From NCBI GenBank assembly GCA_022823775.1, contig JAJEHI010000135.1, forward strand, positions 62,001-126,000: 64,000 nt of DNA, given 5' to 3'. This DNA comes from Defluviicoccus sp. (GTDB lineage Bacteria > Pseudomonadota > Alphaproteobacteria > MPNO01). Shown here in pieces: positions 2,866-64,000 of the stretch (its first letter is position 1; every line of letters begins with the position of its first letter). Below the pieces are notes generated by a model. The model was given only the letters and a program-made list of their open reading frames with translations. It made no database searches and had not been told where the DNA came from. The position numbers and the translations under genes were made by a program.

Positions 2866-2870
2866 GCGCG

Positions 2871-5032: not shown

Positions 5033-5046
5033 GGTCGTGCGCCTTG

Positions 5047-5060
5047 CGTGTCCGGACACG
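5047..5060. promoter_or_regulatory. 14-base perfect palindrome upstream of the PhyH-like gene
   Basis: CGTGTCCGGACACG reads identically on both strands and sits 15 to 28 bases upstream of the PhyH-like start codon, in the only sizeable gap (115 bases) of the hmgA/PhyH cluster. Size and place fit an operator for a dimeric repressor, or a small hairpin in the leader. No regulator gene is nearby; function is inferred. Confidence 0.35.
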
Positions 5061-5147
5061 ATGGAAAAAGGCTAACCGGAGCCGGTGCGCCGATCAACGC
5101 TCGGGGCACGGCGTGCCTCGTATCGTCAGGATGACGGGTGGAGGGGG

Positions 5148-6464: not shown

Positions 6465-6492
6465 GGCTTGCTCCGCGTCTTCCGGGCGCATC

Positions 6493-7281: not shown

Positions 7282-7379
7282 CCCGTCCCCCGTTTTCCCG
7301 GATCGTTGCGGACAGACTGCCCGAATTGCCGGGCTAGGTTAATATGGGAGCGTCAACGCGGCTCACGGAGGAGGCGCAA

Positions 7380-7958: not shown

Positions 7959-8083
7959 GCCGGAAAAATTACTTCGAACCGCAAGCAGCGGCGGGTTGCG
8001 CTATCGCGCCGGCGATGCGAGGCTTGCCGGAGCGGCGCGCGGCGACGGGCGCCCGAACCGCGACCAGTCAGGAGAGGCATGAC

Positions 8084-9130: not shown

Positions 9131-9152
9131 CGTACAGTCCGAGTCTTTCGGC

Positions 9153-9184
9153 AAGGGCCGGCGCGGCTTTGCGCCGGCCCTTTT
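9153..9184 (+). terminator. Rho-independent terminator after the TctC-like gene
   Basis: A perfect 10-bp stem (GGGCCGGCGC / GCGCCGGCCC) with a 6-base loop is followed by TTTT, and the stem extends by two A-T pairs. It begins 24 bases after the TAG stop of the binding-protein gene. Confidence 0.85.
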
Positions 9185-9237
9185 GCTTGGCACGGCCGGT
9201 CGCCACGGACGCCCATTCTTCATGCGGTGCCACCCGG

Positions 9238-9345
9238 GAGGCCTCCCCCTAGCCCTCTCCCCGCTGGGGAGAGGGGACCCGCTCACCGCTTCCTCGTTAC
9301 CTTCTCCCCTCCCGCTCGCGGGAGGGGCCGGGGGAGGGTGGCGAG
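9238..9345. repeat. Tandem pair of GC-rich palindromes between convergent genes
   Basis: There are two perfect 10-bp hairpins, at 9253-9275 (CCCTCTCCCC with loop GCT) and 9306-9327 (CCCCTCCCGC with loop TC), inside a CCTCCCCCTAGCCC...GGGGGAGGGTGG frame. This looks like the dispersed intergenic palindromes common in GC-rich proteobacteria. It sits between the convergent TctC-like and CoxL-like genes. No coding frame here is credible. Confidence 0.6.
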
Positions 9346-9381
9346 CCGGCGCACTTCCCGCAACGTCGAAGTACGGGCGGG

Positions 9382-11745: not shown

Positions 11746-12218
11746 CGTTCGCCTCCGCTGGCGTATTCCGCCACCGCGTGGACGATGCCCTCGTAACCCG
11801 TGCATCGGCAGAGCACGGCGGCCATGCCCGAGCGGATTTCGGCTTCCGTCAGGTTCGGACGGTGGCGCACGAGGTCGAGCGCGGTCATCAGCATACCCGG
11901 CGTGCAGAAGCCGCATTGCAGCGCGCGGTGCTTGGAGAAAAGCTGCTGCAACCGGTGCAGCGTCTCGCCATCGGCAAGCCCCTCCACGGTGTCGATCTCG
12001 GCCCCGTCCGCCTGCACCGCCAACATCAGGCAGGACCGCGCCGCCTCGCCGTCGACATGCACGGTGCACGCGCCGCAAATGCCGTGTTCGCAGCCTACAT
12101 GTGTGCCGGTGAGGCCGAGCGTCTCGCGGAGAAAGTCGCTGAGCAGCATTCGCGGCTCGGCCTCTCCCGTCCGGGCCTCCCCGTTGACCGTCACGGTGAC
12201 GCTGCGTTTTGCGGTCAT
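11742..12218 (-). CDS. Mo hydroxylase small subunit with two [2Fe-2S] clusters (CoxS-like)
   Basis: Protein of 158 residues that carries electrons from the Mo site to FAD. The plant-ferredoxin-type cluster is in GCEHGICGACTVHVDG (with SCLML); the second, all-helical cluster is in QCGFCTPGML and CRCTGYEGIV. All eight Cys are present. It overlaps the FAD-subunit gene upstream and the large-subunit gene downstream by ATGA, giving fixed stoichiometry. Length is typical for the family. Confidence 0.95.
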   Translation of the reverse strand: MTAKRSVTVTVNGEARTGEAEPRMLLSDFLRETLGLTGTHVGCEHGICGACTVHVDGEAARSCLMLAVQADGAEIDTVEGLADGETLHRLQQLFSKHRALQCGFCTPGMLMTALDLVRHRPNLTEAEIRSGMAAVLCRCTGYEGIVHAVAEYASGGER

Positions 12219-13087
12219 GCGGCGACTCCCGCGCGGGTGTGGGCGGCGTTCAACGCGCGCCGCGCCATCGCGGCGGCGAGCTGGCGCCGATAGGCCGCGC
12301 TCGCATGGACGTCGTCGTGCGGGTCGGACGAAGCGGCGACGGCGTCGCAGGCGGCCTCTATCGCTTCGGTTTCGCAGGCGCTGTCGAGCAGGATCTCCTC
12401 GGCATTCCGGAAGCGCAGCGGGGCGGGGCCCAGGCCGCAGGCGGCGATCCGGGCATCGGTTACGCGGCCGTTCGTCAGCGCGATCTGCGCCGCGACGCCC
12501 GCGAGCGCGAAGTCGCCGTCGCGGCGGCTGATCTCGGCGAAGGCCGCGCCGGCGCCGCTCGGGATCCTGGGGAATTCGACCGCGACAAGCATCTCGTCCG
12601 GCTCCAGCGCCGTGGTCAGCACGTCGACGAAGAACCCCCCGGCTGCGATCCGGCGTTCGCCCCTGCGCGATCGGCAGACCATCGTCGCGTCCAGCGCGGC
12701 CGCGACCGCCGGGTCTTCCGCCGCGGGGTCGGCATTCGCGATGCTGCCCCCGACGGTGCCGCGCGTGCGGATAGGCAAATGGGCGACATACCGGGTCGCC
12801 TCGTGGAGCAGCGGCACCGCGCGCGCGACGTCTTCCGAGACCTCGATTTCGCGCTGGCGCGTCATCGCGCCGATGACGACTCGGTCGCCCTGGTCGTCGA
12901 TTCCGGCCAGCTCCGCCACGCCGTTTATGTCGATCAGCACGCTCGGCCGCGCGAGACGGAAGTTGAGCGCCGGCACCAGGCTCTGCCCGCCGGCGAGGAT
13001 TCGCGCGTCGGGTCCGCTGTCGGCCAAGAGGTCGAGGGCCTCGTCGAGGCCCTGCGGCGCGCGGTAGTCGAAACGGGGCGGTTTCAC
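12215..13087 (-). CDS. Mo hydroxylase FAD-binding medium subunit (CoxM-like)
   Basis: FAD subunit of 290 residues that passes electrons to a quinone, NAD or other acceptor. FAD-binding segments AGGQSLVPALNFRLARP (near residue 36) and RGTVGGSIANADPAAE (near residue 112) are clear. It starts at GTG 13087, 13 bases after the permease stop, and overlaps the 2Fe-2S gene by 4 bases. The medium-small-large order matches the cox operon. Confidence 0.93.
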   Translation of the reverse strand: MKPPRFDYRAPQGLDEALDLLADSGPDARILAGGQSLVPALNFRLARPSVLIDINGVAELAGIDDQGDRVVIGAMTRQREIEVSEDVARAVPLLHEATRYVAHLPIRTRGTVGGSIANADPAAEDPAVAAALDATMVCRSRRGERRIAAGGFFVDVLTTALEPDEMLVAVEFPRIPSGAGAAFAEISRRDGDFALAGVAAQIALTNGRVTDARIAACGLGPAPLRFRNAEEILLDSACETEAIEAACDAVAASSDPHDDVHASAAYRRQLAAAMARRALNAAHTRAGVAA

Positions 13088-13100
13088 GGCCGGCGTCCGG

Positions 13101-13898
13101 TCACAACTGCTGCCCGACGTCCCAGCGGATCACCAGCTTTTCCAGGAGCACGATCAGCGCATAGAGGATCACGCCGACGACGCTCAGGACGAAGATCGCG
13201 GCCATCAGCATCGGCGTGTCGACATTGCCTTCCGAAAAGACGATCAGGTAGCCGAGCCCTTCCTGCGCGGTCACGAATTCGGCGACGATAATGCCAATCA
13301 CCGCGAAGGTGATGCCGATCTTGAGCCCCGAGAAGATATAGGGCAGCGCCGTCGGGAACTCGATCTTGGAGAAGATGGTCCAGCGGCTCGCGCTGAACGA
13401 GCGCGCCATGCGGATCATCACCGGGTCGGTGCTCTGGATCCCGGCGAAGGTGTTGACCACCATCGGGAAGAACGCGATCACGAAGGCAAGCAGCACCCGC
13501 GATGTCATGCCGAGCCCGAACCAGACGATGAACAGCGGCGCGAGCGCCACCTTGGGCACGACCTGGAAGGCGATCACAAGCGGGTAGACCCCGACGCGAA
13601 ACAGGCGCGAGAATGCGAGCATGATGCCGAGGCCCACGCCGACCGCGACGGCAAGCAGGAAACCGTAGATGCATTGCACCGTCGTCGGCCAGGTGTGCTG
13701 CAAGAGCAGGTCGTGGCGCTCCACCATCACGTCGAAGATCCGGGTCGGCGTCGGCAGGATCGCCTCCGGAATCTTCAACACCACCACGATCACCTGCCAG
13801 AGCACCAGGATGGCGATCGAGATCGCCGTGGCTGGGGCTAGGGTGACCGCCTGGCTGGTGATCTGCGCGGCGACGCCGCCTTCGTCCGTCCGTGCCAT
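13101..13898 (-). CDS. ABC transporter permease, NitT/TauT (SsuC) family
   Basis: Inner-membrane permease of 265 residues with about six hydrophobic segments. The binding-protein-dependent EAA loop reads EFPTALPYIFSGLKIGI near residue 190 and docks the ATPase. Three bases separate its ATG from the ATPase stop. Together with the ATPase and the Tat-type binding protein it forms a complete nitrate/sulfonate/taurine-family importer. The transporter genes lie directly upstream of the Mo-hydroxylase genes in one transcription unit. Confidence 0.92.
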   Translation of the reverse strand: MARTDEGGVAAQITSQAVTLAPATAISIAILVLWQVIVVVLKIPEAILPTPTRIFDVMVERHDLLLQHTWPTTVQCIYGFLLAVAVGVGLGIMLAFSRLFRVGVYPLVIAFQVVPKVALAPLFIVWFGLGMTSRVLLAFVIAFFPMVVNTFAGIQSTDPVMIRMARSFSASRWTIFSKIEFPTALPYIFSGLKIGITFAVIGIIVAEFVTAQEGLGYLIVFSEGNVDTPMLMAAIFVLSVVGVILYALIVLLEKLVIRWDVGQQL

Positions 13899-13901
13899 GG
13901 C

Positions 13902-14666
13902 CTAACCCTCGATCGCTTCGCGAAGCTCGGCGACATAGACATTGAACGCCGGCGTTTCCTCGATCTCCAGCGTGCGCGGACGGGGAAGCTCGATGTCCAC
14001 GATCTTGCTGATCACCGCGGGGCGGGGCGACATTACGAAGACGCGGTCGGACAGGAATACCGCCTCGCGGATCGAGTGGGTGACGAACAGTACCGTCTTC
14101 TGGAACTCCTGCCAGATCCTGAGCAGCTCCTGGTTCATCGCGTCCCGGGTAATCGCGTCGAGCGCGCTGAAAGGCTCGTCCATCAGCAGCAGGCTCGGGT
14201 TGTGGATCAGCGCGCGGCAGATCGCCACCCGCTGCTGCATGCCGCCCGACAGCTCGCTTGGGAAATTATCGGCGAATCCGTCGAGTCCCGTCATCTCCAG
14301 GAGCGCCGCGGCCCCGTCCTGGTAATCGGCGATGCGCAGCCCAAGGCTCTCGATCGGAAACAGCACGTTCTTCTCGATCGTCCGCCACGGCATCAGTACC
14401 GGCGACTGGAAAACCACGCCGGTATCGCGCCGCGGCCCGGTGACTTCCTCCCGATCGATTGCGATCGAGCCCCCGCTGATCGGCAACAGCCCGCCGACCG
14501 CCATCAGCAATGTCGACTTGCCGCAACCGCTCGGCCCCAGGATCGACACGAACTCGCCCTCGTGGACGGCCATGTCGACATTGCGGATGGCTTCGATCTC
14601 CTCGCGGCGCGTCTGGTAGATCTTGCGCAGCGAGACGATCTGGACGTGGATTGAATTTTCGGCCAT
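13902..14666 (-). CDS. ABC transporter ATP-binding protein, NitT/TauT (SsuB) family
   Basis: ATPase of 254 residues with Walker A GPSGCGKSTLL, Q-loop VFQSPVLMPWRT, signature LSGGMQQRVAI, Walker B LLLMDEPFSALD and H-loop FVTHS. All catalytic parts are intact. It powers import through the adjacent permease. An 11-bp hairpin stands between the binding-protein stop and this start, which probably lowers ATPase/permease expression relative to the binding protein. Confidence 0.93.
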   Translation of the reverse strand: MAENSIHVQIVSLRKIYQTRREEIEAIRNVDMAVHEGEFVSILGPSGCGKSTLLMAVGGLLPISGGSIAIDREEVTGPRRDTGVVFQSPVLMPWRTIEKNVLFPIESLGLRIADYQDGAAALLEMTGLDGFADNFPSELSGGMQQRVAICRALIHNPSLLLMDEPFSALDAITRDAMNQELLRIWQEFQKTVLFVTHSIREAVFLSDRVFVMSPRPAVISKIVDIELPRPRTLEIEETPAFNVYVAELREAIEG

Positions 14667-14676
14667 GAGCTCCCTT

Positions 14677-14704
14677 CCCGGCCCGCCCCGAAGGGCGGGC
14701 CGGG
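14677..14704 (-). promoter_or_regulatory. Intercistronic hairpin after the binding-protein gene
   Basis: CCGGCCCGCCC pairs perfectly with GGGCGGGCCGG around a 4-base loop, in the gap between the binding protein (stop at 14755) and the ATPase (start 14666). There is no T-run, so it is more likely an mRNA-stability or partial-attenuation structure, which is common after binding-protein genes of ABC operons. Confidence 0.55.
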
Positions 14705-14754
14705 GCCGGTTCGCTAGCTATTCCCGATCCGACGGGGCGCCGTTCAGGCGCTCG

Positions 14755-15858
14755 TCACCCCTTGCTCGGATCGAACTTGGAGTTGATCTTGACCGCCGTC
14801 TCGTACTCGCTCGCCGACATCTTGATGTTGCCCGCGAACTTGTTGGTGAAGAGCTTTTCGACCGGCGGGACGTTCTTGGCTTCCATGTACTTGATGACCA
14901 CGTCGCGGGTGCGCGTCTGGTCGTCGGGCAGCATATAGCCGAGCCCGTGATCCTTCACCGCCGGACCCAGCGACAGCGCGTTCGTGTTGCCCGCTTGGGT
15001 CAGCAACAGGTTCCGGTCGCGCGTTTTCAACTCCGGTTTGGCCTCGATCATCGTGTCGAGCGCCTTGCCCGCGTCGAGGATCTGAAGCTTGAGCCCCTCC
15101 ATCGCGCCGTCGACCATCGCCTGAACCAGATCGGGCTCGTTCTTGATCATGTCGGAGCGGGTGATCAGCCCGAGATCGAGGGTCTGAAGGCCGAAATCGG
15201 CATAGAGGAAGTGGACCGACGGTGTCTTCTGCTCCAGCGTCGCTGCGTTGGACACGTAATAGCTGCCGGTGCACTCGGCCTGCTTATTGACCACCGTCGA
15301 GATCAGCTTGCTCGGATGCACGATGATCTGCTTGACCTTGGACTTGTCGATCCCGGCGGCCCGCGTGAAACCCGGGAGCATCACCGTGTCGCCGGACGCC
15401 GCCGCCTGGACGAGGCGCTTGCCTTCGAGATCCTTCACGGTCTTGATGCCGGAATCGCTCCGGCACGAGATTGCGATCGGGCTGCGCTGCAGCTTGGCGC
15501 CAATGCCGACCACGTCCAGCCCCTTGGAGACGCCGTTGACCATCACGCCGTAGCTTGCCTCGCCGAACATCGACTTTCCGGCCGAGATCGTCTTGCACGA
15601 CGCCCCCGAGCCGTAGCCGCGGGAGATCGCGACATCGAGGCCGCGGTTCTTCCAGTAAATCTTCTGAGCCGCAAACTCGAAAGAATGCCCGCCGACGAAC
15701 AGCCAGGGCAGCATGAATGTGACCTTGCGCATCTTGGACGCGCCGGCCTCCCGGATGAACGCGGGCGCCGTGCCGGTCGCCAGGATCAGGCCGAGGCCGG
15801 TCGTGCTCGCAAGGAACGACCGTCTGGTCGGGGCCTTCCCAATCTTCTTGTCCTTCAC
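14755..15858 (-). CDS. Tat-exported ABC substrate-binding protein (NMT1/TauA-like)
   Basis: Periplasmic binding protein of 367 residues. The N-terminus APTRRSFLASTTGLGLILA is a twin-arginine signal, so it is exported folded. The mature part has the SsuA/NMT1 layout (TFMLPWLFVGGHSFEFAAQK, then the SPIAISCRSDSGIKTVKDLEGK domain boundary). GTG 15858 is chosen because AGGAGG precedes it with 7-base spacing. It is the first gene of the ABC/Mo-hydroxylase operon; the ligand is presumably the hydroxylase substrate or its precursor. Divergent from the cupin gene at 15997. Confidence 0.9.
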   Translation of the reverse strand: MKDKKIGKAPTRRSFLASTTGLGLILATGTAPAFIREAGASKMRKVTFMLPWLFVGGHSFEFAAQKIYWKNRGLDVAISRGYGSGASCKTISAGKSMFGEASYGVMVNGVSKGLDVVGIGAKLQRSPIAISCRSDSGIKTVKDLEGKRLVQAAASGDTVMLPGFTRAAGIDKSKVKQIIVHPSKLISTVVNKQAECTGSYYVSNAATLEQKTPSVHFLYADFGLQTLDLGLITRSDMIKNEPDLVQAMVDGAMEGLKLQILDAGKALDTMIEAKPELKTRDRNLLLTQAGNTNALSLGPAVKDHGLGYMLPDDQTRTRDVVIKYMEAKNVPPVEKLFTNKFAGNIKMSASEYETAVKINSKFDPSKG

Positions 15859-15996
15859 GATATTGCCTCCTCTGTTTCCGTCCCGCCAAGACGGTATCAA
15901 CGGTCCGCGGCCGGTACAACCTCGTCCGGGCATTGTCCGCCCGCGCCGCCGGTGCCATCATCCGGGCAGCTTGGCCAGGACTGCGAGGAGCTTCCG

Positions 15997-16530
15997 ATGA
16001 CGATTGCCCGGCACGAACGCCCGCCCGAGCTCGCGGGCGTCCCGTTGAACGAGATCGCCGAGCGCTACACCCGTGCCTTCCGGGAGATCGTGCCCGACTG
16101 GGAGGCCTTCGAGGATGCGAAGATCGAAGGGTACAAGCGGGCCCAGCACCGCTTCATCGGCCCCGGCGGTTCGGGCAAGCATCACGATACCGAGGCGATC
16201 CCGGCGCGCGGCTTCACGCTCTCCATCATGTATGTGGAGCCGGGCCAGGGGAATGCGGCCCACACGCACGAGGTGGAGGAAATCTTCTTCGTGCTCCAGG
16301 GCCATCTCACCGTGTTCTTCGACGACGAAAACACCGGCGAGCGGATCGAGAAACGGCTCGGGCCGTGGGAATGCGCCGCCTGCCCGCCCGGCGTCGTCCA
16401 CGGCTATATCAACGACAGCCTGGAGCCCGTCTATTTCCAGGTCATGCTCGGACGCGGCAGGCCGGAAACCATGGGCTATTCCGACGACGAACTCTTCCAG
16501 CGACGCGACGCCCACCTGAAAAGCGCCTGA
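15997..16530 (+). CDS. Cupin-domain protein
   Basis: Small single cupin of 177 residues. Metal ligands are AAHTHEVEEIFFVLQGHLTVFF (His-x-His-x4-Glu) and PPGVVHGYIN (third His), so a metal site is likely. The ATG follows CGAGGAG by 6 bases. It is 4 bases upstream of the second Mo-hydroxylase large subunit, so they are co-transcribed; in that setting it may act on the hydroxylated product as a dioxygenase or isomerase (inference). Divergent from the ABC/Mo operon, with 138 bases between. Confidence 0.82.
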   Translation: MTIARHERPPELAGVPLNEIAERYTRAFREIVPDWEAFEDAKIEGYKRAQHRFIGPGGSGKHHDTEAIPARGFTLSIMYVEPGQGNAAHTHEVEEIFFVLQGHLTVFFDDENTGERIEKRLGPWECAACPPGVVHGYINDSLEPVYFQVMLGRGRPETMGYSDDELFQRRDAHLKSA

Positions 16531-49779: not shown

Positions 49780-50469
49780 TCACACGATATCGATCGTCAG
49801 ACTGCCGATGCCCTCGATCTCGCCGACCAGCCGATCGCCCCGCCCCACCTTGCCGGGCCCCTTGGGCGTACCCGTGAAGATGAGGTCGCCGGGCTCCAGC
49901 CGGCTCAGCGCCGACAGCCGCGCGACGATTTCGGCGACCGGCCAGATCAGATCGGACAGGTCGCCGCGCTGACGCTCCGCCCCGTTGATCGACAGCGCGA
50001 TGGCACCGCTCGCCGGATGGCCGATCTCCGCCGCCGGTGCGAGATCGCTCATCGGCGATGCGCCGTCGAAGCTCTTGCAGAGATCCCACGAATGCTGGTC
50101 GGCGATGCAGGCATGCATGATGTCGCGCCGGATCATGTCGAAGCCGACCGCGTAACCGAATACGTGGTCGAGCGCGGTCTCGCGCGGGATGTCGGCACCG
50201 CCCTTGCCGATCGCCGCGACCATTTCGACCTCCGGTTCGAGCCGCTCCGTCCCCGGCGGGAAGGGCAGGGATGCACCGTCGGGGATCACCGAGTCGGCCG
50301 GCTTGAGGGAAACGCCCGGCTTCGACCCGCCGGCGCCGCCGAGACCCGTTTCCGCGGCGTGGGCCGCGTAGTTGCGCCCGATCGTATAGATCCGGCGAAC
50401 CGGAAAGCGGAGATCGCTGCCCGCGATCCCCACCGTCGCGGGTTCTACAACGGGTATCGCGTAGCTCAT
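49780..50469 (-). CDS. Fumarylacetoacetate hydrolase (FAH) family protein
   Basis: Hydrolase/isomerase-fold protein of 229 residues. It has YTIGRNYAAHAAE near the N-terminus, metal ligands in LEPEVEMVAAIGKGG (Glu-x-Glu) and an Asp in GFDMIRRDI. KSFDGASPMSDLAPA and GDLIFTGTPKGPGKV are typical of fumarylpyruvate/acylpyruvate hydrolases. ATG 50469 follows GGGGAG. It ends a three-gene operon (Fe-S protein, adenylate-forming pseudoenzyme, this). It may finish an aromatic ring-cleavage pathway such as that starting with HmgA or the bicupin (inference). Confidence 0.88.
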   Translation of the reverse strand: MSYAIPVVEPATVGIAGSDLRFPVRRIYTIGRNYAAHAAETGLGGAGGSKPGVSLKPADSVIPDGASLPFPPGTERLEPEVEMVAAIGKGGADIPRETALDHVFGYAVGFDMIRRDIMHACIADQHSWDLCKSFDGASPMSDLAPAAEIGHPASGAIALSINGAERQRGDLSDLIWPVAEIVARLSALSRLEPGDLIFTGTPKGPGKVGRGDRLVGEIEGIGSLTIDIV

Positions 50470-50491
50470 CGCCGACTTCTCCCCGCTCCGG

Positions 50492-51925
50492 TCAGGCCTT
50501 GCCCAATAGGGCGACCGCGCCGTCCTCGCCGATCCTCGCCCGGATACCGGTTCGCCACCAGCGGTCGCCGGTAAAGGCGCTCCGGTTCGCCGCCTCGTCG
50601 TCGAGATAGGAGGGCGCGAGGTTCGGGCCGCGCAGCTCCAACGCGCCTTCCCCGGCCGCGCCCACGATTTCGTCGTTTCCCGCGACAAGGCGAAGCGACA
50701 TGCCGGGCGCCGGCTCCAGCGTCTCGGGCGCCTCGGGAGAAGCGGCGAGCGCGAGCTGCGCTTCCGGTACGATCCACACGCGGCAACCCGCGTCCGCCGC
50801 GAGCGTCAGGCGGACGCCCGGCAGCGGGGCTCCGACGGCGACCGTCGGTCCGGCGTCCCGTCCGCACAAAGCGGCACCCGAAAAAAGGGCGAGGTTGATG
50901 GCGACGACGGCATGGTGCGGATCGCGCGAAGCGACCGCGATGCGATCCTCCGCCGAGAGCCCGAAACGCGCTACGGCCCAGTCGGCTCCGGCGAGGAGGG
51001 TATGCGCGTTGTGCACGACGGCGCGCGGCGACTCCCCGTCCGGTCCCGCGAACAGGACCGCCGACGGATCGCCCGCCACGGCGTCCCCGTCCCACGGTCC
51101 GGAGAACGGCCCCATCGAGTCTTCGATGGGAGCGACGGTCTCGAGCGCAGGCGGTCGCGGCTCCGGCAACCCGCCGCGGCGGGTAATCAGCACCCGGGCG
51201 GAGACCTTTTCGAGGCAGCGGGCGAGCGCCGTTTCCGCCAGCCCGTCCGGCAGCGGAGACAGCACCGCGCTAGAAAGCGATGCAGCGGCGTAGGCCAGCA
51301 GCAGAGAGGCCGGCGACCCATCGTCGATGGCGATCGCGTCTCCCCGCCCGACGCCGCGTTCCGTCAAGCCGCTGGCGAGCGACAGCGACCGTTCGAGTGC
51401 CGCACTCCAGTCGAGCGTCGTTCCTCCGGCGTCGAGAGCGAGGTCGTCCCCGTTCTCCTCAGCCAGCGCGCGCAGCCGGTTCGCAGGCGTCGCCGATCCC
51501 CAGCGTCCGGTCCGGATGTGACGGCCCGCCTCGCCGGAATCGAATTTGAGAACCGAGCGGAGCGCCATCGCCCGCTCGTCGAGACTTGCGCGCTCTTCCA
51601 CGTGAACGAAGCGTTCCGCCCGGTAGCGCCGTCCGCCGCCGAGCTCGTAGAGCCGATGATAATGGTGGCGCCGGAACTTGCGATGCTCCAGAAGCAGCCG
51701 GATATGCGTGACCTGCTCCCGGGTCAGCCCGATCCGCTCCGCGATCTGGACATCGGCGAGACCGGCACCGTCGCGTTGCGCCTCGATCTGCTCCCAGTCC
51801 AGCCTCCGGATGGGGTCGCCGATGCGGACCTGGACGTTATGGCTGAGATCCCAGATCGTCTCTCCGTAAGCCTCGACCATCTCCTCGGTCAGGCCCATCT
51901 GGTCCCGGTTCAGGCCGCGCGTCAT
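50492..51925 (-). CDS. Degenerate adenylate-forming protein fused to an HTH-like N-terminal domain
   Basis: Protein of 477 residues in two parts. Residues 1-130 (LTEEMVEAYGETIWDL..., then the HTH-like ADVQIAERIGLTREQVTHIR, then a basic FRRHHYHRLYELGGG) resemble nothing I can name. Residues 145-477 follow the acyl-CoA-ligase N-domain, but the phosphate loop TSGTTGxPKG has become FAGPDGESPRA, the TGD motif is TGI (WWRTGIRARIG), and the chain ends at LLGKA where the hinge and catalytic C-domain should begin. Adenylation is therefore very unlikely. ATG directly abuts the stop of the Fe-S protein (TAGATG). A binding or regulatory role is plausible. Confidence 0.75.
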   Translation of the reverse strand: MTRGLNRDQMGLTEEMVEAYGETIWDLSHNVQVRIGDPIRRLDWEQIEAQRDGAGLADVQIAERIGLTREQVTHIRLLLEHRKFRRHHYHRLYELGGGRRYRAERFVHVEERASLDERAMALRSVLKFDSGEAGRHIRTGRWGSATPANRLRALAEENGDDLALDAGGTTLDWSAALERSLSLASGLTERGVGRGDAIAIDDGSPASLLLAYAAASLSSAVLSPLPDGLAETALARCLEKVSARVLITRRGGLPEPRPPALETVAPIEDSMGPFSGPWDGDAVAGDPSAVLFAGPDGESPRAVVHNAHTLLAGADWAVARFGLSAEDRIAVASRDPHHAVVAINLALFSGAALCGRDAGPTVAVGAPLPGVRLTLAADAGCRVWIVPEAQLALAASPEAPETLEPAPGMSLRLVAGNDEIVGAAGEGALELRGPNLAPSYLDDEAANRSAFTGDRWWRTGIRARIGEDGAVALLGKA

Positions 51926-52837
51926 CTACTCGCCGTCGTCGTCGGCATACTCGAAACGGCGTATCGGGTCCGCCTGCGGCGCCTGGGTCGCGATCGGGCA
52001 GACCCGCATACATTCGAAACATTGGGCGAGCAGACCGCCGGAGCCGACCGACATCTTGTACCAGAGTATCTTGTTGTCGGCGTCGAACAGCGCATCCTCG
52101 CGCTCGACCGAATCCCGCGCCTCCACCGCGTCCGCGATCATCGACGGGACGGCCTCGAATTGCTGGGTCATCTCCGCGCAGGCCGCCATGTCGTAGCGCA
52201 TGACTGCCTGGTTGCCGTCGTCGTCGATTTCGCCCGACAGGCATTGCACGGGGCAGAATTTCATGCACGGCGTTTGTCCGGTCTTGCGGTAAAGGCTGAC
52301 GCAGGACGGCGCAGGGCAGGGGTTTTCCTTCATCGGCTCGTCGGGCGGGAGCTCGAGCTCGGTGAACACCGATGCGAAATACATGTAGCCGAAGTCCGGG
52401 TGCAGCAGGATGTCGCCCGCGAAGGAGCGTGCCCCGATTCCGGCGACCTCGGCATGCAGCTTGATGCTCTGCAAGGGTACCCGGGGGCCCGCTTCGACGT
52501 CCATGTCGGGCGGACAGTAGATCGAGCGGATGCCGAACCTGTTCTCGATGAAGAACGCGCAGCCATAGGCGATGGTGTAGGCACGGGTCTCGGTGCTGCC
52601 GAAATAGCCGAGCGCCTTGGCGGGCAGCGCCCACGCGCCCTGGGTCTGGCCGCCGACGCCGAGCGCGATGACGGATTTCACCTTCGGCATGAGGTCGGTC
52701 GGACGGTGGCCCGGCGGCGCGATGCGTTCCAGCGTCTCCAGGTCGGCGACGCCCGCGGCAAGCGCCCCCTTGCGCTTGCAATAGGCGAGAATCTCCTCTT
52801 TCGCAGCCGCTGGATCGATTCCCTCGCGTCTCGCCAC
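51926..52837 (-). CDS. QueG/reductive-dehalogenase-like protein with two [4Fe-4S] clusters
   Basis: Protein of 303 residues. Eight Cys in cluster-like spacing are visible: ENPCPAPSC, TPCMKFCPVQC and LAQCFECMRVCP. The middle (VKSVIALGVGG, AYTIAYGCAFFIENRFG, KLHAEVAGIGA) matches epoxyqueuosine reductase and reductive dehalogenases, which use a corrinoid next to the clusters. No Tat signal, so cytosolic. GTG 52837 is chosen for GGGAGGG upstream. First gene of the operon; it is not beside tRNA-modification genes, so a catabolic reductase is as likely as QueG. Confidence 0.78.
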   Translation of the reverse strand: MARREGIDPAAAKEEILAYCKRKGALAAGVADLETLERIAPPGHRPTDLMPKVKSVIALGVGGQTQGAWALPAKALGYFGSTETRAYTIAYGCAFFIENRFGIRSIYCPPDMDVEAGPRVPLQSIKLHAEVAGIGARSFAGDILLHPDFGYMYFASVFTELELPPDEPMKENPCPAPSCVSLYRKTGQTPCMKFCPVQCLSGEIDDDGNQAVMRYDMAACAEMTQQFEAVPSMIADAVEARDSVEREDALFDADNKILWYKMSVGSGGLLAQCFECMRVCPIATQAPQADPIRRFEYADDDGE

Positions 52838-52947
52838 CGAACCCTCCCTTTCGTGCGGCGGGCGCCATAATAGTCGCGGGCCGAGCGTTGCGCACGTCCC
52901 GGCGAAAAGGCACTCTCCCGGCCGGTTACCCTTGGCGGAGAGGCAGC
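52838..52947. promoter_or_regulatory. Divergent promoter region, Fe-S operon / binding-protein gene
   Basis: This gap of 110 bases separates the Fe-S operon (-) from the dihydroxyphthalate-decarboxylase-like gene (+). It holds CGCCATAAT followed by a CGCGGGCCG, nearly the same block as in the amidohydrolase promoter at 27888. A -35 box is not clear in either direction. Confidence 0.35.
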
Positions 52948-53943
52948 ATGGCAAACATCCACCTGACGCTCGCGATGGACGAGTACGACCACACCCGCGA
53001 CCTTCTACAGGGCAAGGTCGCCGCCGAGGGGATCGACCTGACCTGGCTCAACCTCGACGTCGAGGAGATCTTCTATCGTTTCGCGAGTGCCTGGGAATGG
53101 GACGTTTCCGAACTTTCCTTCGCCAAGTACTGCTCGATCGTGTCGCAACCGAATCCGCCGATCACCGGGATCCCGGTCTTTGTCTCGCGGGTTTTCCGGC
53201 ACTCGGCCTGGTACGTCGCCGCCGATGGGCCGGTGAAGGAGGTCGCGGACCTCGCCGACAAGCGGATAGGCATCCCCGAATGGTCCCAGACCGCTACTGT
53301 CTATGCCCGGGGCTGGCTCGCCGAGGATGCCGGAATTCCGCTTGAGAAGGTCGACTGGGTACAGGCCGGGGTCAACGAACCGGGTCGGGTCGAGCTCGCC
53401 CACCTCAAGCTTCCCGACGGGATCCGGTACCGTCAGGTACCCGACCGGTCGCTCACCGAAATGCTTCTCGCGGGCGATATCGACGCGCTGATTTCCGCCC
53501 GTCCGCCCAAGGCGTTCCTCGGCGGCGATACCCGGATCGAGCGGCTGATCCCCGACTACCGGGCGCAGGAGCAGGACTATTTCAAACGGACCGGCATCTA
53601 CCCGATCATGCACACCGTCGCGATCCGGCGGGACACCTACGAGAAGCATCCCTGGATCGCGATGAACCTGCTGAACGGTTTCGAAGCGGCCAAGAAGCGG
53701 AGCGTCGCCAGGCTGACCAGCGTCACCCATTCCCAGATCCCGGTGCCGTGGATCTACGACATGGTCCCGGAACTCGGCGGCGACATCTTCCCCGGCGGCG
53801 ATTACTGGCCTTACGGGATCGAGCCCAACCGGCCGACCATCGAGGCGTTTCTGAGGTTCTGCTACGATCAGGGCCTCTGCCATCGCAAGATGGAACCGGA
53901 AGACCTCTACCCCGAGGAGGTGCAGTCGGTCTTCCGCGTTTGA
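52948..53943 (+). CDS. 4,5-dihydroxyphthalate decarboxylase-like / substrate-binding-fold protein
   Basis: Protein of 331 residues with a periplasmic-binding-protein-II fold but no signal peptide (MANIHLTLAMDEYDHTRDLLQGK), so cytosolic. It resembles the group annotated as 4,5-dihydroxyphthalate decarboxylase, whose members share LSFAKYCSI and the GIPEWSQTATVYARGWL hinge. ATG 52948 has GGAGAGG. If the group name is right it decarboxylates a dihydroxy-aromatic diacid; otherwise it binds one. Divergent from the Fe-S operon. Confidence 0.75.
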   Translation: MANIHLTLAMDEYDHTRDLLQGKVAAEGIDLTWLNLDVEEIFYRFASAWEWDVSELSFAKYCSIVSQPNPPITGIPVFVSRVFRHSAWYVAADGPVKEVADLADKRIGIPEWSQTATVYARGWLAEDAGIPLEKVDWVQAGVNEPGRVELAHLKLPDGIRYRQVPDRSLTEMLLAGDIDALISARPPKAFLGGDTRIERLIPDYRAQEQDYFKRTGIYPIMHTVAIRRDTYEKHPWIAMNLLNGFEAAKKRSVARLTSVTHSQIPVPWIYDMVPELGGDIFPGGDYWPYGIEPNRPTIEAFLRFCYDQGLCHRKMEPEDLYPEEVQSVFRV

Positions 53944-57127: not shown

Positions 57128-57193
57128 CCCGCCTTGTTGGCGCATCGGCTGGCGGCTAAGCTCTCGCCGCTTCGGACAGGCTGGGAGGGTATC

Positions 57194-57853
57194 GTGTCGG
57201 ACGACCTCGACATTTACGAAAAGCAGGGCTTCGGCAACCGCATCGGGTTCGGCGAGAAGCCGGCGCTTATCGTCATCGACTTCATCAACGCGTTCAACGA
57301 CCCCGAAATGTTCGGCGGCGGCAGCATCCAGTCGGCGATCGACCATACCGAGGATCTCCTGGGGCTCGCGCGCCATCTCGACCTGCCGGTCGCGTTCACC
57401 TCCCATGCCTACGCGGCCGACCGCAGCGAGGATGGCATTTTCAACATGAAGTCGCCGGGGCTGAGCAAGCTCCTCCCCAACACCCATGCGACCGCCGTCG
57501 TCGACCAGCTCTCGCCGCGCCCGGGCGAACGCGTAATCAGCAAGCTCTACCCGTCCGGCTTCTTCGCCACCGACCTCGCCAACTGGCTCGCCAAGAGGGG
57601 CGTCGACACCGCCATCGTCACCGGCTGCACGACCAGCGGCTGCGTGCGGGCGACGGTGGTGGACGCCATGGGGTACGGATTCCGGCCGATCGTCCCGGCC
57701 GAATGCTCGGGCGACCGCGCCCAGGGTCCGCACGAGGCGAACCTGTTCGACATGGACCAGAAATACGCCGACGTCATGCCGCTCGCCGAAGTCCGGAAGG
57801 CCCTCGAAGAGCTTGCGCCCGAACAGGCCAGAACGGCGCACGCGGCGGAATAG
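57194..57853 (+). CDS. Cysteine hydrolase, N-carbamoylsarcosine amidase / maleamate amidase-like
   Basis: Isochorismatase-superfamily amidohydrolase of 219 residues. The triad is visible: Asp in LIVIDFINAF, Lys in VISKLYPSGF and Cys in GCTTSGCVRATV. The segment VPAECSGDRAQGPHEANLFDM is typical of the maleamate/N-carbamoylsarcosine group. GTG 57194 has GGGAGGG before it. It lies 22 bases before a maleate-isomerase-like gene, reproducing the NicF-NicE pair of nicotinate breakdown (maleamate to maleate to fumarate), which would suit Mo-hydroxylase substrates. Confidence 0.87.
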   Translation: MSDDLDIYEKQGFGNRIGFGEKPALIVIDFINAFNDPEMFGGGSIQSAIDHTEDLLGLARHLDLPVAFTSHAYAADRSEDGIFNMKSPGLSKLLPNTHATAVVDQLSPRPGERVISKLYPSGFFATDLANWLAKRGVDTAIVTGCTTSGCVRATVVDAMGYGFRPIVPAECSGDRAQGPHEANLFDMDQKYADVMPLAEVRKALEELAPEQARTAHAAE

Positions 57854-57875
57854 AACCGGCTCAAGAGGAAACAGA

Positions 57876-58676
57876 ATGACCGATTCCATCGGCTGGCGCG
57901 CCAACTGGGGCGTCATCGCACCGTCGACCAACACGTCGGTTCAGCCCGAGTTCGACGACATGCGTCCGCCCGGCGTGACCAACCACCACGTGCGCATCTG
58001 GATTCCGGACGAGCCGGTGCATTCGGACGAGGATTTCAACCGGCTGATGGACAATATCCGCCGTGAGTTCGACAACGCGATCCTGCGCGTGATGACCTGC
58101 AATCCCGACTACATCGTCATGGGCATGTCTGCCGAGACATTCTGGGACGGGCTCGCCAAGAGCATCGAGCTCCGCGAGCAGGTCAAGAAGCTGTCGGGCC
58201 TTGGCGTCGCCATGGGCTCGGATGCCTGTCAGGCGGCGCTCCGCTGCTACGGCGACATCAGGCGGATCGGCGTGCTCACCCCCTACTGGCCGGTCGGCGA
58301 TAAGAACGTGAAGAAGTTCTTCGAAGACTGCGGCTTCGAGGTCGTCGCCATCAAGGGTCTCAAATGCGAGAGCCCCGCCATGATCGCGCAAGTCACCGAG
58401 GACGAGCTGCGCGAGGCGCTGGTCGAGCTCGACGGGCACGATGTGGAGGCGCTGGTGCAGTGCGGCACCAACCTCGCGATGGCGCGGCTCGCCGGGGAGG
58501 CCGAGAAATGGCTCAAGAAGCCGGTGCTCGCGATCAACACCGCGACCTACTGGTATGCCATGCGGGCCAACGGCTACGACGACGCGATCGAGGGATTCGG
58601 CTCCCTGATGACCGATTTCCGCGAGCTTCCCGCGGCTTATCTGGAGAGTGTGGCGGGCGGAGCCGGGACGGCCTGA
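57876..58676 (+). CDS. Maleate cis-trans isomerase / arylmalonate decarboxylase family protein
   Basis: Asp/Glu-racemase-fold protein of 266 residues. It begins NWGVIAPSTNTSVQPEFD, as in maleate isomerases. The second catalytic Cys is in VQCGTNLAM, but the first Cys position reads MGMSAETFWDG, so it has the single-Cys arrangement of arylmalonate decarboxylase. AAGAGGAAA precedes ATG 57876. Coupled with the amidase gene; predicted to act on its diacid product. Confidence 0.82.
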   Translation: MTDSIGWRANWGVIAPSTNTSVQPEFDDMRPPGVTNHHVRIWIPDEPVHSDEDFNRLMDNIRREFDNAILRVMTCNPDYIVMGMSAETFWDGLAKSIELREQVKKLSGLGVAMGSDACQAALRCYGDIRRIGVLTPYWPVGDKNVKKFFEDCGFEVVAIKGLKCESPAMIAQVTEDELREALVELDGHDVEALVQCGTNLAMARLAGEAEKWLKKPVLAINTATYWYAMRANGYDDAIEGFGSLMTDFRELPAAYLESVAGGAGTA

Positions 58677-59240: not shown

Positions 59241-60860
59241 TCACACCTCTCCCGCCCGAGCCGCAACCAACGAATCCGGCGTATCGATGTCGAGCAGGAT
59301 ACCCGGATCCGGCATCGCCACCTCGACGACGGATTCGGGGTGCTCGTCCATCAGGTGCCGCGCGCCGGCATCGCCCCCGACCTCGCGCATTTCCGCGAAG
59401 AAATCCCGGTGCCAGAGCGAGGGGTTGCCGCGTTTTCCGTCGTGCGTCGGCACGCATATGGCGGGCTCGTCCTGGGCCTCGAATGTCTCGACAAGCCGTG
59501 TCGTGTGTTCGGCGGTGACTTGCGGCATGTCTCCCAGGCAGACAAGCGCGCCCTCGGCGTCGTCCGGGATCGCCGCGAGCCCCGCCTTGAGGGACCCCGA
59601 CATGCCGGCTGCGTAGTCGGGGTTGTGAACGAACCGGACCGGCCGGCCGGAGAGCGCCGCGCGGATCCTCTTGTCCTCGTGGCCGGTGACGACCACCACC
59701 GGGGCCGCGCCCGAGGCGACGGCCGCGTCCACCGCGCGGACCACCATCGGGACACCCTCGATTTCGGCCAGCAGCTTGTTGACCTCGCCCATCCGGCGCG
59801 ATCGGCCGGCGGCGAGCACGATGCCGGCGACGCCGCTCTCTCCGGTCCCGGCGCTCGGGCTCTCGCGCGGCACAGGCCGGTTCGCCATCTGCTTGAGCAG
59901 CCCGCCCGCCCCCAGGCCCGCGATATCGGCGCCCGATACCTCGATCCCGGCCACGATCCGCTGCAGCACCCGATCGAAGCCGTGCATCCGGGGCGAGCGC
60001 GCCGAACCGGGCAAGCCCAGAACGTGCATCTCTCCCAATCTCCCAACCAGGGTCAGGTGACCGGGGTCCACCGGCATGCCGAGTCGCACGATCGTACCGC
60101 CCGCGCGGACAAGCGCCGACGGAGCCACGTCCCGCCGGTCCACGATGGCGGAGGCGCCGAGGATCAGGGCGACGTCGATACCGTACGCCCGGAAGGACTC
60201 CAGACAACCCGCCACCGCGCCCTCGTCATGGGCGACCCGTTCCGTCCGGTCGAGCGAACAGCCCAGCGGGTCCAGGCGTCCGCGCGTCGCCGCGAGGGTC
60301 TTTTCGAAGAGAGATTCCTTCAGGCCGCCCAGCTCGGTCTGGATCAGCCCGAAACGCCGCGCGGCAAAGGGCGCGACTCGAACCGGCGCCCCCGGCGCCT
60401 CGGCCGACGATACCGCGGAATCGAGGATCGCCTCGTTCACCGCGAAGGGGACGATCTTGACGACCGCCACGACGGCGCGCGGGGGCACGACCTGCCAGGG
60501 CGCGACGGTTGCGATCGTGACGGCCTCGTCGATCGCGTTGATCGCGTGGATGCGCTCGACATCAACCACCGCGAGTCCGGCGGCGGACGCGCGGAGATTG
60601 GCCCGGCCGGTGAAGGCATTGTCGACCGTGAGCCCCTCTCCGCGGAACGCCTCGGCGAGTCTGACGGCCGCCTCGTCCTCCCCCACGTCGCCGGGCTCCA
60701 GCCGCGCGGTAACGACTTCCTTCGACCCCGCGCGGGCGAGCGCCGCAACATCGTCGGCGGTGAGCCGATGCCCCTTCTTCAGGGTACGGTCCGCCAGCGT
60801 CGTCGCGTGCGCGAGCAGCGCGCCTTCGGCCTGCGCGAGAAGCGTCGAGCCGAACTTCAC
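59241..60860 (-). CDS. Molybdenum cofactor cytidylyltransferase fused to MoeA-like molybdopterin-binding domain
   Basis: Protein of 539 residues. The N-terminal 340 residues have a molybdopterin-binding (MoeA/CinA-like) layout including ALILGASAIVDRRD. The C-terminal 190 residues are a MobA/MocA nucleotidyltransferase: GIVLAAGRSRRMGEVNKLL and LVCLGDMPQVTAEH. MocA adds CMP to molybdopterin for xanthine-dehydrogenase-type enzymes. GTG 60860 overlaps the XdhC stop (GTGA). Last gene of the maturation operon, convergent with cytochrome c. Confidence 0.92.
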   Translation of the reverse strand: MKFGSTLLAQAEGALLAHATTLADRTLKKGHRLTADDVAALARAGSKEVVTARLEPGDVGEDEAAVRLAEAFRGEGLTVDNAFTGRANLRASAAGLAVVDVERIHAINAIDEAVTIATVAPWQVVPPRAVVAVVKIVPFAVNEAILDSAVSSAEAPGAPVRVAPFAARRFGLIQTELGGLKESLFEKTLAATRGRLDPLGCSLDRTERVAHDEGAVAGCLESFRAYGIDVALILGASAIVDRRDVAPSALVRAGGTIVRLGMPVDPGHLTLVGRLGEMHVLGLPGSARSPRMHGFDRVLQRIVAGIEVSGADIAGLGAGGLLKQMANRPVPRESPSAGTGESGVAGIVLAAGRSRRMGEVNKLLAEIEGVPMVVRAVDAAVASGAAPVVVVTGHEDKRIRAALSGRPVRFVHNPDYAAGMSGSLKAGLAAIPDDAEGALVCLGDMPQVTAEHTTRLVETFEAQDEPAICVPTHDGKRGNPSLWHRDFFAEMREVGGDAGARHLMDEHPESVVEVAMPDPGILLDIDTPDSLVAARAGEV

Positions 60861-61567
60861 GCGGCGACACGCTCCTTGTCGTGCAGCGCCTGGGTCACCT
60901 GGGCGAGAATGGAGACCGCGATCTCGGCCGGAGAAACGGCGCCCAGCGAAAGCCCGACGGGGCCGTGGATTCGTCCGATCTCATCCGCTGTGAACCCCGA
61001 TTCCGTAAGCCGTTCGACGCGCGCGGCGTGCGTCTTCCTGCTGCCGAGCGCACCGATATAGAACGCGTCCGAACGCAGAACGGCGGCGAGCGCCGGATCG
61101 TCGATCTTGGGGTCGTGGGTGAGCGTCACCACCGCGGTGCGCCGGTCGGGATCGAGCGGCGGCATCGCCTCGTCGGGCCATTCGTTGACCAGGGTGACGC
61201 CCGGGAACCTGTCGTCGGTCGCGAACGAGCCGCGCGGGTCGATCACCGTCACGTCATAGCCCGCCACCGACGCCATCCGCGCGAGCGGCTGGGCGATGTG
61301 GACCGCGCCGACGATGAGCAGCCGGAGCGGCGGGTTGAACACCTCGACGAACATGTCTCCGTCCGTGCCCGGAACGGTGCCCGACTTGTCGTCGCGAATG
61401 GCGTTTTCCACCGCCTGGCGCAGCCCGGTATCGACCTCGATCTCGCCCTCGTCCGCGCCGTCGAGATAGAGGATGGACTGGCCTCCGGTCTCCAGATGGG
61501 TGACCAGCGCGAATTGCCGTTTCGCCTCGCGGTCGGCGAGGACCCGTTGCAGTGTCTCCGTCTTCAT
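60857..61567 (-). CDS. XdhC/CoxI family Mo-hydroxylase maturation protein
   Basis: Protein of 236 residues that binds the molybdenum cofactor and promotes its sulfuration and insertion. The C-terminal Rossmann half is clear: LLIVGAVHIAQPLARMASVAGYDVTVIDPR and FYIGALGSRKTHAAR, then RIHGPVGLSLGAVSPAEIAVSI. It starts at ATG 61567 immediately after the stop of the small CoxI-like gene, so the usual XdhC polypeptide is split over two adjacent genes. Overlaps the MocA-like gene by 4 bases. Confidence 0.92.
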   Translation of the reverse strand: MKTETLQRVLADREAKRQFALVTHLETGGQSILYLDGADEGEIEVDTGLRQAVENAIRDDKSGTVPGTDGDMFVEVFNPPLRLLIVGAVHIAQPLARMASVAGYDVTVIDPRGSFATDDRFPGVTLVNEWPDEAMPPLDPDRRTAVVTLTHDPKIDDPALAAVLRSDAFYIGALGSRKTHAARVERLTESGFTADEIGRIHGPVGLSLGAVSPAEIAVSILAQVTQALHDKERVAA

Positions 61568-61915
61568 CTAGTCGAGCTTCTCCACATAGACATGGACCTG
61601 ACCGCCGCAGGCGAGGCCGACCTCCCAGGCGAGCTCGTTGGTCACGCCGTATTCGAGCACCTTCGGCTTGCCGGTCTCGATCACCTCTTGGGCCTCGTGG
61701 ATCACCGCGCCCTCGATGCAGCCGCCCGAGACCGAGCCCACGAAGTTCTGGCCGGAATCGATGGCGAGGTGGCTACCGACCGGCCGCGGCGAGGAACCCC
61801 ACGTCCTGATGACGGTGGCGATCGCCACGTCGCGGCCGCCCTCGCGCCAGGCGCGGGCCTCGTTGAGCACGTCGTCGTCCTTCGAAATCGCGGTCACGCC
61901 AGCATCTGCAGCCAT
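61568..61915 (-). CDS. XdhC N-terminal-domain protein (CoxI-like, short)
   Basis: Protein of 115 residues matching only the N-terminal half of XdhC: VIRTWGSSPRPVGSHLAI and FVGSVSGGCIEGAVI, then LACGGQVHVYVEKL, which holds the conserved Cys-Gly-Gly. It overlaps the coxE stop by 22 bases and abuts the next XdhC gene (TAGATG). Probably forms the functional unit with it. Confidence 0.9.
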   Translation of the reverse strand: MAADAGVTAISKDDDVLNEARAWREGGRDVAIATVIRTWGSSPRPVGSHLAIDSGQNFVGSVSGGCIEGAVIHEAQEVIETGKPKVLEYGVTNELAWEVGLACGGQVHVYVEKLD

Positions 61916-63150
61916 TTGCCCATCCCTTCCCTGCGTCGGACCGATGGCCGGCCCAGCGCTTCGATCAACTCTTCCAGGCTCTGGAGATTGTGCACCGGGC
62001 GGAACTCGTCAACAAACGGAAGCAGAGACCTGATTCCCTGCGAACGCGGCTCGAACCCCTCGAAGCGGAGCAGGGGGTTGAGCCAGATCAGCCGGCGGCA
62101 GGATTTGTGCAGCCGCTCGATCTCGCCGTGCAGGCCGCGCCCGGCGTCGCGGTCCAGCCCGTCGCTGATCAGCAGTACCACCGCGCCCTGTCCGAGGACG
62201 CGGCGCGACCAGAAGCGGTTGAATTCCTTCAGAGATTCCCCGATCCGCGTTCCGCCGGACCAGTCCTCCACCGAATCGGCGACTCGCGTCAGAGCGATGT
62301 CGATGTCGCGCTGGCGCAGATGCCGCGTGACGTTGGTCAGCCTGGTCCCGAACAGAAAGGTGTGCACCCGGTCCCGGTCGTTGGTCAGCGTGTGCATGAA
62401 GTGGAGGAACATGCGGGTATAGCGGCTCATCGAGCCGGAGATGTCGCAGACGATCACCAGCGGCGGCAGGCGCGTCGCCCGTTTTCGCCATTTGAGCGGG
62501 ATCGTCGCGCCGCCGGACCGCAGCGCCGCGCGCAATGTCGAGCGCATGTCCACCCTGATCCGTCGCTTGTCGGGCCGGAAACGCCTGGTGGGGATTTCCG
62601 CGATGGGAAGGCGCATCCGTGCGATCGCCGCTTTCGCTCGGGCGATCTCGTCCGCGCTCATGTCCTCGAAGTCCATCTCCTGCAGAAGCTCGTTGGCCGA
62701 TGCGGTCATCACCGCGTCGAGCTCGATCTCCTGGTCCCGTTCCTTCTCCTCGTCCGCGTCCGAATCGTCGTTCGGGTTGAGCGCTTCGAGCAGCCGGCGG
62801 CTCGGCGGTTCCGGCGGGGGCGCGGCGACCTCGGCCTCCGGCATGACGATGCCCATCATGCGTTCCAGGATCTTGGGGTCGCGCCAGAAAATGTGGAACG
62901 CCTGGTCGAACAAATCGTGCTGATCGCGGCGGTTGACGAAGACCGCGTGCAGCGCCCAGTAGAAATCGGAGCGGTTGGTGACGCCCACCTCCCGCACCGC
63001 GTCCACGGCGTCGAGCACCTTTCCCGTGCCCACCGGCAGCCCGGCCGAGCGCAGGATGCGGCCGAAATGCATCACGTTGGCGGCCAGCCGGCTGCCCTCC
63101 AGGCCGTCGAGCAGCGCGAAGGGACCCGGCCTGCTCTCGGCCGGGCTCAT
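61894..63150 (-). CDS. VWA-domain protein CoxE-like
   Basis: Protein of 418 residues. The C-terminal von Willebrand A domain carries the MIDAS motif VCDISGSMSRY and SGGTRIGESL. An acidic stretch (PNDDSDADEEKERDQE) near residue 126 and the LPVGTGKVLDAVDAV start are CoxE features. CoxE works with the MoxR-like ATPase CoxD in assembling the Cu/Mo active site of CO dehydrogenase; here presumably for the window's Mo hydroxylases. Overlaps coxD by ATGA. Confidence 0.92.
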   Translation of the reverse strand: MSPAESRPGPFALLDGLEGSRLAANVMHFGRILRSAGLPVGTGKVLDAVDAVREVGVTNRSDFYWALHAVFVNRRDQHDLFDQAFHIFWRDPKILERMMGIVMPEAEVAAPPPEPPSRRLLEALNPNDDSDADEEKERDQEIELDAVMTASANELLQEMDFEDMSADEIARAKAAIARMRLPIAEIPTRRFRPDKRRIRVDMRSTLRAALRSGGATIPLKWRKRATRLPPLVIVCDISGSMSRYTRMFLHFMHTLTNDRDRVHTFLFGTRLTNVTRHLRQRDIDIALTRVADSVEDWSGGTRIGESLKEFNRFWSRRVLGQGAVVLLISDGLDRDAGRGLHGEIERLHKSCRRLIWLNPLLRFEGFEPRSQGIRSLLPFVDEFRPVHNLQSLEELIEALGRPSVRRREGMGKWLQMLA

Positions 63151-64000
63151 GGCTGGATTTGCGCGAGCTGGCTCTTGACCTCGTCGAGGATCCGGGCCGC
63201 CTCGCTGCCCCGCATCTTCTCGATGTCATCCTGGTACTTGAGCAGGACGCCGAGCGTCGAATTGACGGTCTCGGGGTCGAGATCGATCTTGTCGAGCTGG
63301 ATCAGGGCGTTGGTCCAGTCGATTGTCTCGGCGACCCCGGGCAGCTTGAACAGGTCCTTGTTGCGCAGCTCCTGGACGAAGGCGACCACCTGCCGCGACA
63401 GCTCCTCGCCGGCGCCCGGCACCTTGACCTTGAGGATTTCGAGCTCGCGCGCGGCATCGGGGTAGTCCACCCAGAAATAGAAGCAGCGCCGTTTGATGGC
63501 GTCGTGTATCTCGCGCGTCCGGTTCGACGTGACGACGACGATCGGCGGCGTCGACGCGCTGACCGTCCCGATTTCCGGGATGGTCGTCTGGAAGTCCGAC
63601 AGCAGCTCCAGGAGGAAGGCCTCGAACGGCTCGTCGGTACGGTCGAGCTCGTCGATCAGCAGCACCGGCGGCATGCCCGACAGGTCGGTTTCGAGGGCCT
63701 GCAGAAGCGGGCGCTTGATCAGGAACCGCTCCGAGAAGATGCCCTCCTCGATGCGCTCGCGGTCGGTCTCGCCGGTCGCCTCGGCGATCCGGATGTCGAT
63801 CATCTGGAGGCTGTAGTTCCACTCGTAGACCGCCGAGGAAACGTCCAGCCCTTCGTAACATTGAAGGCGGATCAGCCGGCGCCCCAGCGCCTCCGACAGG
63901 ACCTTGCCGATCTCGGTCTTGCCCACGCCCGCTTCGCCTTCGAGAAACAGCGGCCGTTCCAGCTTGAGCGCCAGGAACAGCGCCGTCGCCAGAGAACGGT
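63147..64000 (-). CDS. MoxR-type AAA ATPase CoxD-like, 5' end cut by window
   Basis: The frame is open to the window end. Walker A lies in FLEGEAGVGKTEIGK (just beyond the ORF-track start), Walker B in PPVLLIDELDRTDEPFEAFLLE, and sensor 1 in IVVVTSNRTREIHDAIKRRC. About 30 residues or more at the N-terminus are missing. MoxR ATPases act as chaperones on metal-enzyme subunits together with VWA proteins. The first visible gene of the maturation operon; its stop overlaps coxE (ATGA). Confidence 0.92.
   Translation of the reverse strand, partial: RSLATALFLALKLERPLFLEGEAGVGKTEIGKVLSEALGRRLIRLQCYEGLDVSSAVYEWNYSLQMIDIRIAEATGETDRERIEEGIFSERFLIKRPLLQALETDLSGMPPVLLIDELDRTDEPFEAFLLELLSDFQTTIPEIGTVSASTPPIVVVTSNRTREIHDAIKRRCFYFWVDYPDAARELEILKVKVPGAGEELSRQVVAFVQELRNKDLFKLPGVAETIDWTNALIQLDKIDLDPETVNSTLGVLLKYQDDIEKMRGSEAARILDEVKSQLAQIQP

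Follow-up and report, generated by a model that had tools for sequence, protein, structure and literature searches.

An RdhA/QueG-class-like Fe-S protein and its constant helix-turn-helix-like neighbor at a Defluviicoccus locus with a degenerate acyl-CoA ligase

The locus described here occupies positions 49780-53943 of a 64,000-nucleotide stretch of a Defluviicoccus sp. genome, the whole of which is referred to as the window. It comprises a packed minus-strand trio of genes separated by gaps of 0 and 22 bases, which encode an Fe-S reductase-like protein (FeS), a protein with a helix-turn-helix (HTH)-like domain fused to a ligase part (HTH-ligase), and an FAH-family hydrolase (FAH), as well as a divergent gene for a 4,5-dihydroxyphthalate-decarboxylase-like protein (DHPD), as listed in Table 1. 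These coordinates agree with the layout read in a preliminary description of the DNA. The GTG start of FeS at 52837 is common to all five copies of the Defluviicoccus clade, and the longer reading from a TTG at 52954 overlaps DHPD, so that the latter start is unlikely. The four genes are real genes, since all of them are intact in five related genomes and pairwise dN/dS values between these range from 0.07 to 0.31 for FeS, FAH, and DHPD. The loci nearest to the window, which belongs to a Defluviicoccus-like genome, are L029-L032.

Table 1. Features of the locus, with positions in the window
Feature	Position	Strand	Basis
FeS protein, RdhA/QueG-class reductase-like (predicted)	51926 to ~52837	(-)	GTG start; conserved cysteines, fold match, hhalign
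HTH-ligase gene, 477 aa	50492-51925	(-)	ATG start
HTH-like domain, 125 aa, constant neighbor of FeS	51551..51925	(-)	Neighborhood and profile searches
Relic of an acyl-CoA ligase (PF00501), degenerate and shortened at the C terminus, in fusion with the HTH-like domain	50492..51550	(-)	PF00501 match
FAH-family hydrolase	49780-50469	(-)	ATG start; PF01557 match
DHPD, 4,5-dihydroxyphthalate-decarboxylase-like, periplasmic-binding fold	52948..53943	(+)	9jp7 match
Divergent FeS-DHPD intergenic region, 110 bases, candidate promoter/operator	52838..52947		Conserved 13-base block

On the basis of a predicted structure, FeS is assigned to the fold class of RdhA and QueG. Confidence in the AlphaFold model is moderate (mean pLDDT 72.5). 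A Foldseek search with it returned PceA (4ur3, E 2e-7) together with QueG and CblC, all of which are corrinoid proteins, at a TM of about 0.4 for this moderately confident model, in keeping with the Fe-S reductase-like identity proposed in the preliminary description. The Pfam search matched no family, the DUF1730 (PF08331) N-terminal domain included, and neither PF13486 nor TIGR02486 was matched by the window's FeS in the Pfam and NCBIfam searches. Eight cysteines (C179, C184, C196, C200, C225, C278, C281, and C285, numbered on window 51926-52852) are conserved in 42 sequences and are predicted to hold two [4Fe-4S] clusters. In a profile comparison with hhalign, FeS aligned well with QGa, one of a tandem of QueG-like proteins discussed below (E 4e-13), with all eight cluster cysteines in register and an insertion separating the second from the third, whereas the FeS profile matched the genome's own QueG, taken as a single sequence, weakly (probability 4). 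The fold matches and the QGa alignment together suggest that FeS binds a corrinoid and the predicted clusters.

Reductive dehalogenases such as PceA and NpRdhA, with two 4Fe-4S clusters in the C-terminal part, are the best fold matches of FeS, which nevertheless differs from them in the absence of PF13486 and TIGR02486, in a length of only ~304-308 aa, and in its pairing with an HTH-like protein. QueG resembles FeS in fold and cysteine order, although its cluster-1 spacing is CxxCxxCxxxCP rather than the Cx4C-x11-Cx3CP of FeS, and the match to the QueG model TIGR00276 is weak, reaching 24.3 bits against a cut-off of 200 bits. A true QueG is encoded on another contig of the same genome (C82 of G000), and the identification of FeS as QueG was rejected on these two grounds; the preliminary description had considered that FeS might be the sole ordinary QueG of the genome, which is not the case.

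The HTH-like domain may adopt a helix-turn-helix fold, as is weakly suggested by a match to HTH_3 at E 0.17 and by a predicted helical core. No Pfam or NCBIfam family was found for it, no fold match in the PDB reached significance, and the best of the non-significant matches were sigma region 4, LuxR-type, and KorA HTH proteins; a search of solved structures with the HTH profile gave a best E of 0.02, to a designed protein. The dN/dS of the domain across five species is 0.04-0.14.

The ligase part matches PF00501 with 57.9 bits over residues 154-254. Alignment indicates that the window copy has lost the P-loop, A5, A7/A8, and A10 motifs together with the C-terminal subdomain, and the P-loop, A5, A8 hinge, and A10 lysine are likewise all absent in L029-L032, the ligase part of the Defluviicoccus clade being shortened and motif-less but still in frame. 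Its dN/dS is 0.19-0.33, compared with 0.04-0.14 for the HTH-like domain, with zero stop codons in five species, and the constraint is thus relaxed but not absent, amounting to weak purifying selection. Elsewhere, 47 loci have the HTH-like domain fused to a ligase in which the P-loop, A5, hinge, and A10 motifs are all present; in 8 others it is a protein on its own. With all tested ligase motifs, the fused domains of these 47 relatives resemble AMP-forming acyl-CoA ligases of PF00501, from which the window copy departs by its lost motifs and subdomain. On the FeS tree, the loss in the Defluviicoccus clade is a single change, and the HTH-alone form changes state at least twice. The term pseudoenzyme, used in the preliminary description, is therefore appropriate for the Defluviicoccus clade, but the suggestion made there that the dead ligase serves in sensing cannot describe the ancestral role, because the pseudoenzyme arose late from a ligase that was complete. 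HTH-fused ligase domains without catalytic motifs also occur outside Defluviicoccus (L070, 10912-12609; L098, 1723-2988); L091, with an apparent frameshift, was left out as evidence of ligase decay.

FeS orthologues of the order to which the window belongs were aligned, and a scan of a genome collection with this alignment yielded 70 loci in Alpha-, Beta-, and Gammaproteobacteria, nearly all from metagenome-assembled genomes. The HTH gene directly follows FeS in 68 of them, and the remaining two (L085 and L092) end at contig ends; the junction was measured in 66 cases, of which 63 fall in the range from -4 to +12 bases and 18 have a 4-base overlap. Of 288 genomes of the class, 10 contain FeS, and it is these same 10, from 6 genera, that contain the HTH-like domain (Fisher p 1e-18, uncorrected for kinship). 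Among 299 genomes of the phylum, the HTH-like domain occurs in the window's own only, and the module is therefore rare. FeS and the HTH protein form the core, a two-gene unit conserved across many uncultivated bacteria, since both are kept everywhere while the ligase can be lost. The parts of the module belong to known superfamilies, and no description of this gene combination turned up in the literature library that was searched, in line with the statement of the preliminary description that no described system was known.

The other two genes of the locus have clear relatives, and the family identities first proposed for them hold. DHPD aligns over residues 3-324, nearly its full length, with the solved 4,5-dihydroxyphthalate decarboxylase 9jp7 (E 2.5e-68), from which a decarboxylase activity is predicted, and no signal peptide was seen by eye; its partner genes differ from those of the known decarboxylase. 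FAH matches PF01557 with 163.9 bits against a cut-off of 23.9, and among solved structures it matches 6j5y (E 3.5e-65) and 4maq (E 6e-58), a putative fumarylpyruvate hydrolase and a close FAA-hydrolase relative. The preliminary description had treated the four families as one system that might be linked in other genomes. That expectation holds for FeS and the HTH protein but not for the whole, since a DHPD gene is found close to the pair in 12 of 70 loci and an FAH gene in 9 of 70, one of the latter being just 30% identical; the four-gene unit was rejected as a widely conserved system. The linkage is found mostly in the window's clade and in one other alphaproteobacterial clade, and DHPD and FAH are lineage additions to the FeS-HTH pair. 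In clades with DHPD or FAH, genes for cyclophilin, MATE, isochorismatase, and Asp/Glu-racemase-like proteins are syntenic too, so part of this linkage may reflect inherited chromosome order. The window itself encodes an isochorismatase-family hydrolase followed by an Asp/Glu-racemase/arylmalonate-decarboxylase-like protein at 57134-58676, and both families keep a syntenic position close to the pair in L035, L044, L054, and L073.

The wider genomic context of FeS includes the tandem QueG-like proteins QGa and QGb, which occur in ten of 288 class genomes, with a fragment in one more, and coincide with FeS in 7 (10 and 10 of 288; Fisher p 5e-10, uncorrected for kinship). A QGa orthologue is present in about two thirds of 50 FeS-bearing genomes, and the QGa-QGb pair is missing from about a third of the genomes with FeS. 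In every locus inspected, a PaaK-like ligase lies beside QGa-QGb, and five loci (L059, L064, L066, L071, and L078) contain a ligase, QGa, QGb, the PaaK-like gene, FeS, and HTH, in this order, in one operon. In the window's genome, QGa, QGb, and the PaaK-like gene are located together on another contig (L099); positions 2759-16318 there encode a GMC oxidoreductase, an NMT1-like binding protein, the PaaK-like ligase, the two tandem QueG-like proteins, an enoyl-CoA hydratase-like protein, a CaiB-like protein, and an RdhA-like Fe-S protein. A distant second module, in which a PaaK-like gene stands opposite FeS'-FeS''-HTH', the first two being tandem paralogues of FeS, was found in L108 (4594-8276) and L109 (7694-11022), its HTH' having 110 aa and scoring 29 bits against the HTH profile. 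Other neighbors of the FeS-HTH pair include RdhA-like proteins with a ligase (7 loci), liv-type and TctC transport proteins, and acyl-CoA dehydrogenases; because the genes outside the pair vary so widely between lineages, no single pathway is fixed by them.

The FeS-DHPD intergenic region contains a near-palindromic 13-base block, AGCGTTGCGCACG, which is identical in five species and is a candidate promoter or operator. No second exact copy was found in the genome, one-mismatch copies were not above the control level, and at the QGa/QGb/PaaK locus nothing beyond chance was detected; a regulon defined by the block was rejected on these grounds. Across loci, no enrichment of upstream k-mers was convincing over background.

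The explanation we favor combines a corrinoid Fe-S reductase, a dedicated HTH partner, and acid activation, with the DHPD and FAH of the clade acting in the same pathway, and as a whole it is plausible but tentative. FeS would be a reductase that depends on a corrinoid and on [4Fe-4S] clusters and belongs structurally with RdhA and QueG, and the HTH-domain protein would be its dedicated partner, serving more probably as a docking or adaptor subunit than as a free regulator. The AMP-forming ligase that this partner carries in most lineages would activate an organic acid as a CoA ester beside the reductase. Because the fused ligase has lost catalysis in the Defluviicoccus clade, another ligase would have to activate the acid there, for example the PaaK-like one that is encoded next to the two QueG-like proteins on another contig, and the ligase relic may be retained as a structural or ligand-binding part. 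DHPD, as a decarboxylase-like protein, and FAH, as a C-C hydrolase, might process the same, probably aromatic, acid in this clade. A bolder formulation, in which FeS and the HTH protein constitute a not yet described class of corrinoid Fe-S reductase complex whose obligate, small helical subunit brings in an acyl-CoA ligase, either fused or separate, for reductive chemistry on a CoA-activated acid, is fairly unlikely to be correct in full.

The HTH-like domain could instead bind DNA, as the weak HTH_3 match and the conserved block in the divergent promoter region would allow. BirA-type bifunctional regulators join an N-terminal HTH to an adenylate-forming enzyme, and HTH-ligase resembles them in this order of domains, its DNA binding being putative, while it differs in ligase family and in its constant pairing with an Fe-S reductase-like protein. 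The main rival to the reductase-partner reading is an autoregulator of this kind, in which the HTH binds the divergent promoter, the active or dead ligase domain binds the acid, its adenylate, or its CoA ester, and the substrate of the locus acts as its switch. The helical core, the known HTH proteins among the non-significant fold matches, the identity of the near-palindromic block in five species, and the purifying selection on the relic are all consistent with such a regulator, yet we consider it somewhat unlikely. The HTH-like domain is never without FeS in the 288 genomes, which is unusual for a regulator, and its stand-alone form has no ligand domain at all. In L059, L064, and L066, moreover, another gene ends a few bases before the pair, so that no promoter lies directly upstream of it, and the block is confined to a single exact genome copy and absent from the QGa/QGb/PaaK locus.

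The four window genes might also form a single aromatic-diacid catabolic operon, in which DHPD decarboxylates, FeS reduces, and FAH hydrolyzes a C-C bond, FeS-HTH having no separate role. The order of a DHPD gene divergent from FeS-HTH-FAH is indeed intact in L029-L032, L035, L044, L046, and L073, and a divergent DHPD adjoins FeS in L051, L054, and L041 as well, but the absence of DHPD and FAH from most FeS-HTH loci and the synteny of unrelated neighbors make this quite improbable. A QueG-related enzyme that modifies tRNA or RNA and has a helical partner that binds RNA would accommodate the QueG-class fold of FeS and the small, possibly nucleic-acid-binding partner; it is highly improbable in view of the true QueG elsewhere in the genome, the low score against the QueG model, neighbors that are CoA ligases, transporters, and acyl-CoA enzymes, and a partner whose rarity in the phylum is unlike that of tRNA modification genes.

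Corrinoid reductases of the RdhA and QueG classes form a small group, and few of their substrates are known. If the reductase-partner reading is true, a conserved module in which such a protein is linked both to an HTH-like partner and to the activation of an acid would extend this group by a novel type of reaction or of assembly. The module would then also be a concrete target for work on the metabolism of acids or aromatic compounds in the alpha-, beta-, and gammaproteobacteria, mostly uncultivated, over which it is spread. Farther along the window, the minus strand at 59241-63926 carries open reading frames resembling XdhC, a MobA-like nucleotidyltransferase, a MoxR ATPase, and a VWA protein (CoxD/CoxE-like), which, as read from their translations, probably represent a molybdenum-hydroxylase maturation cluster.
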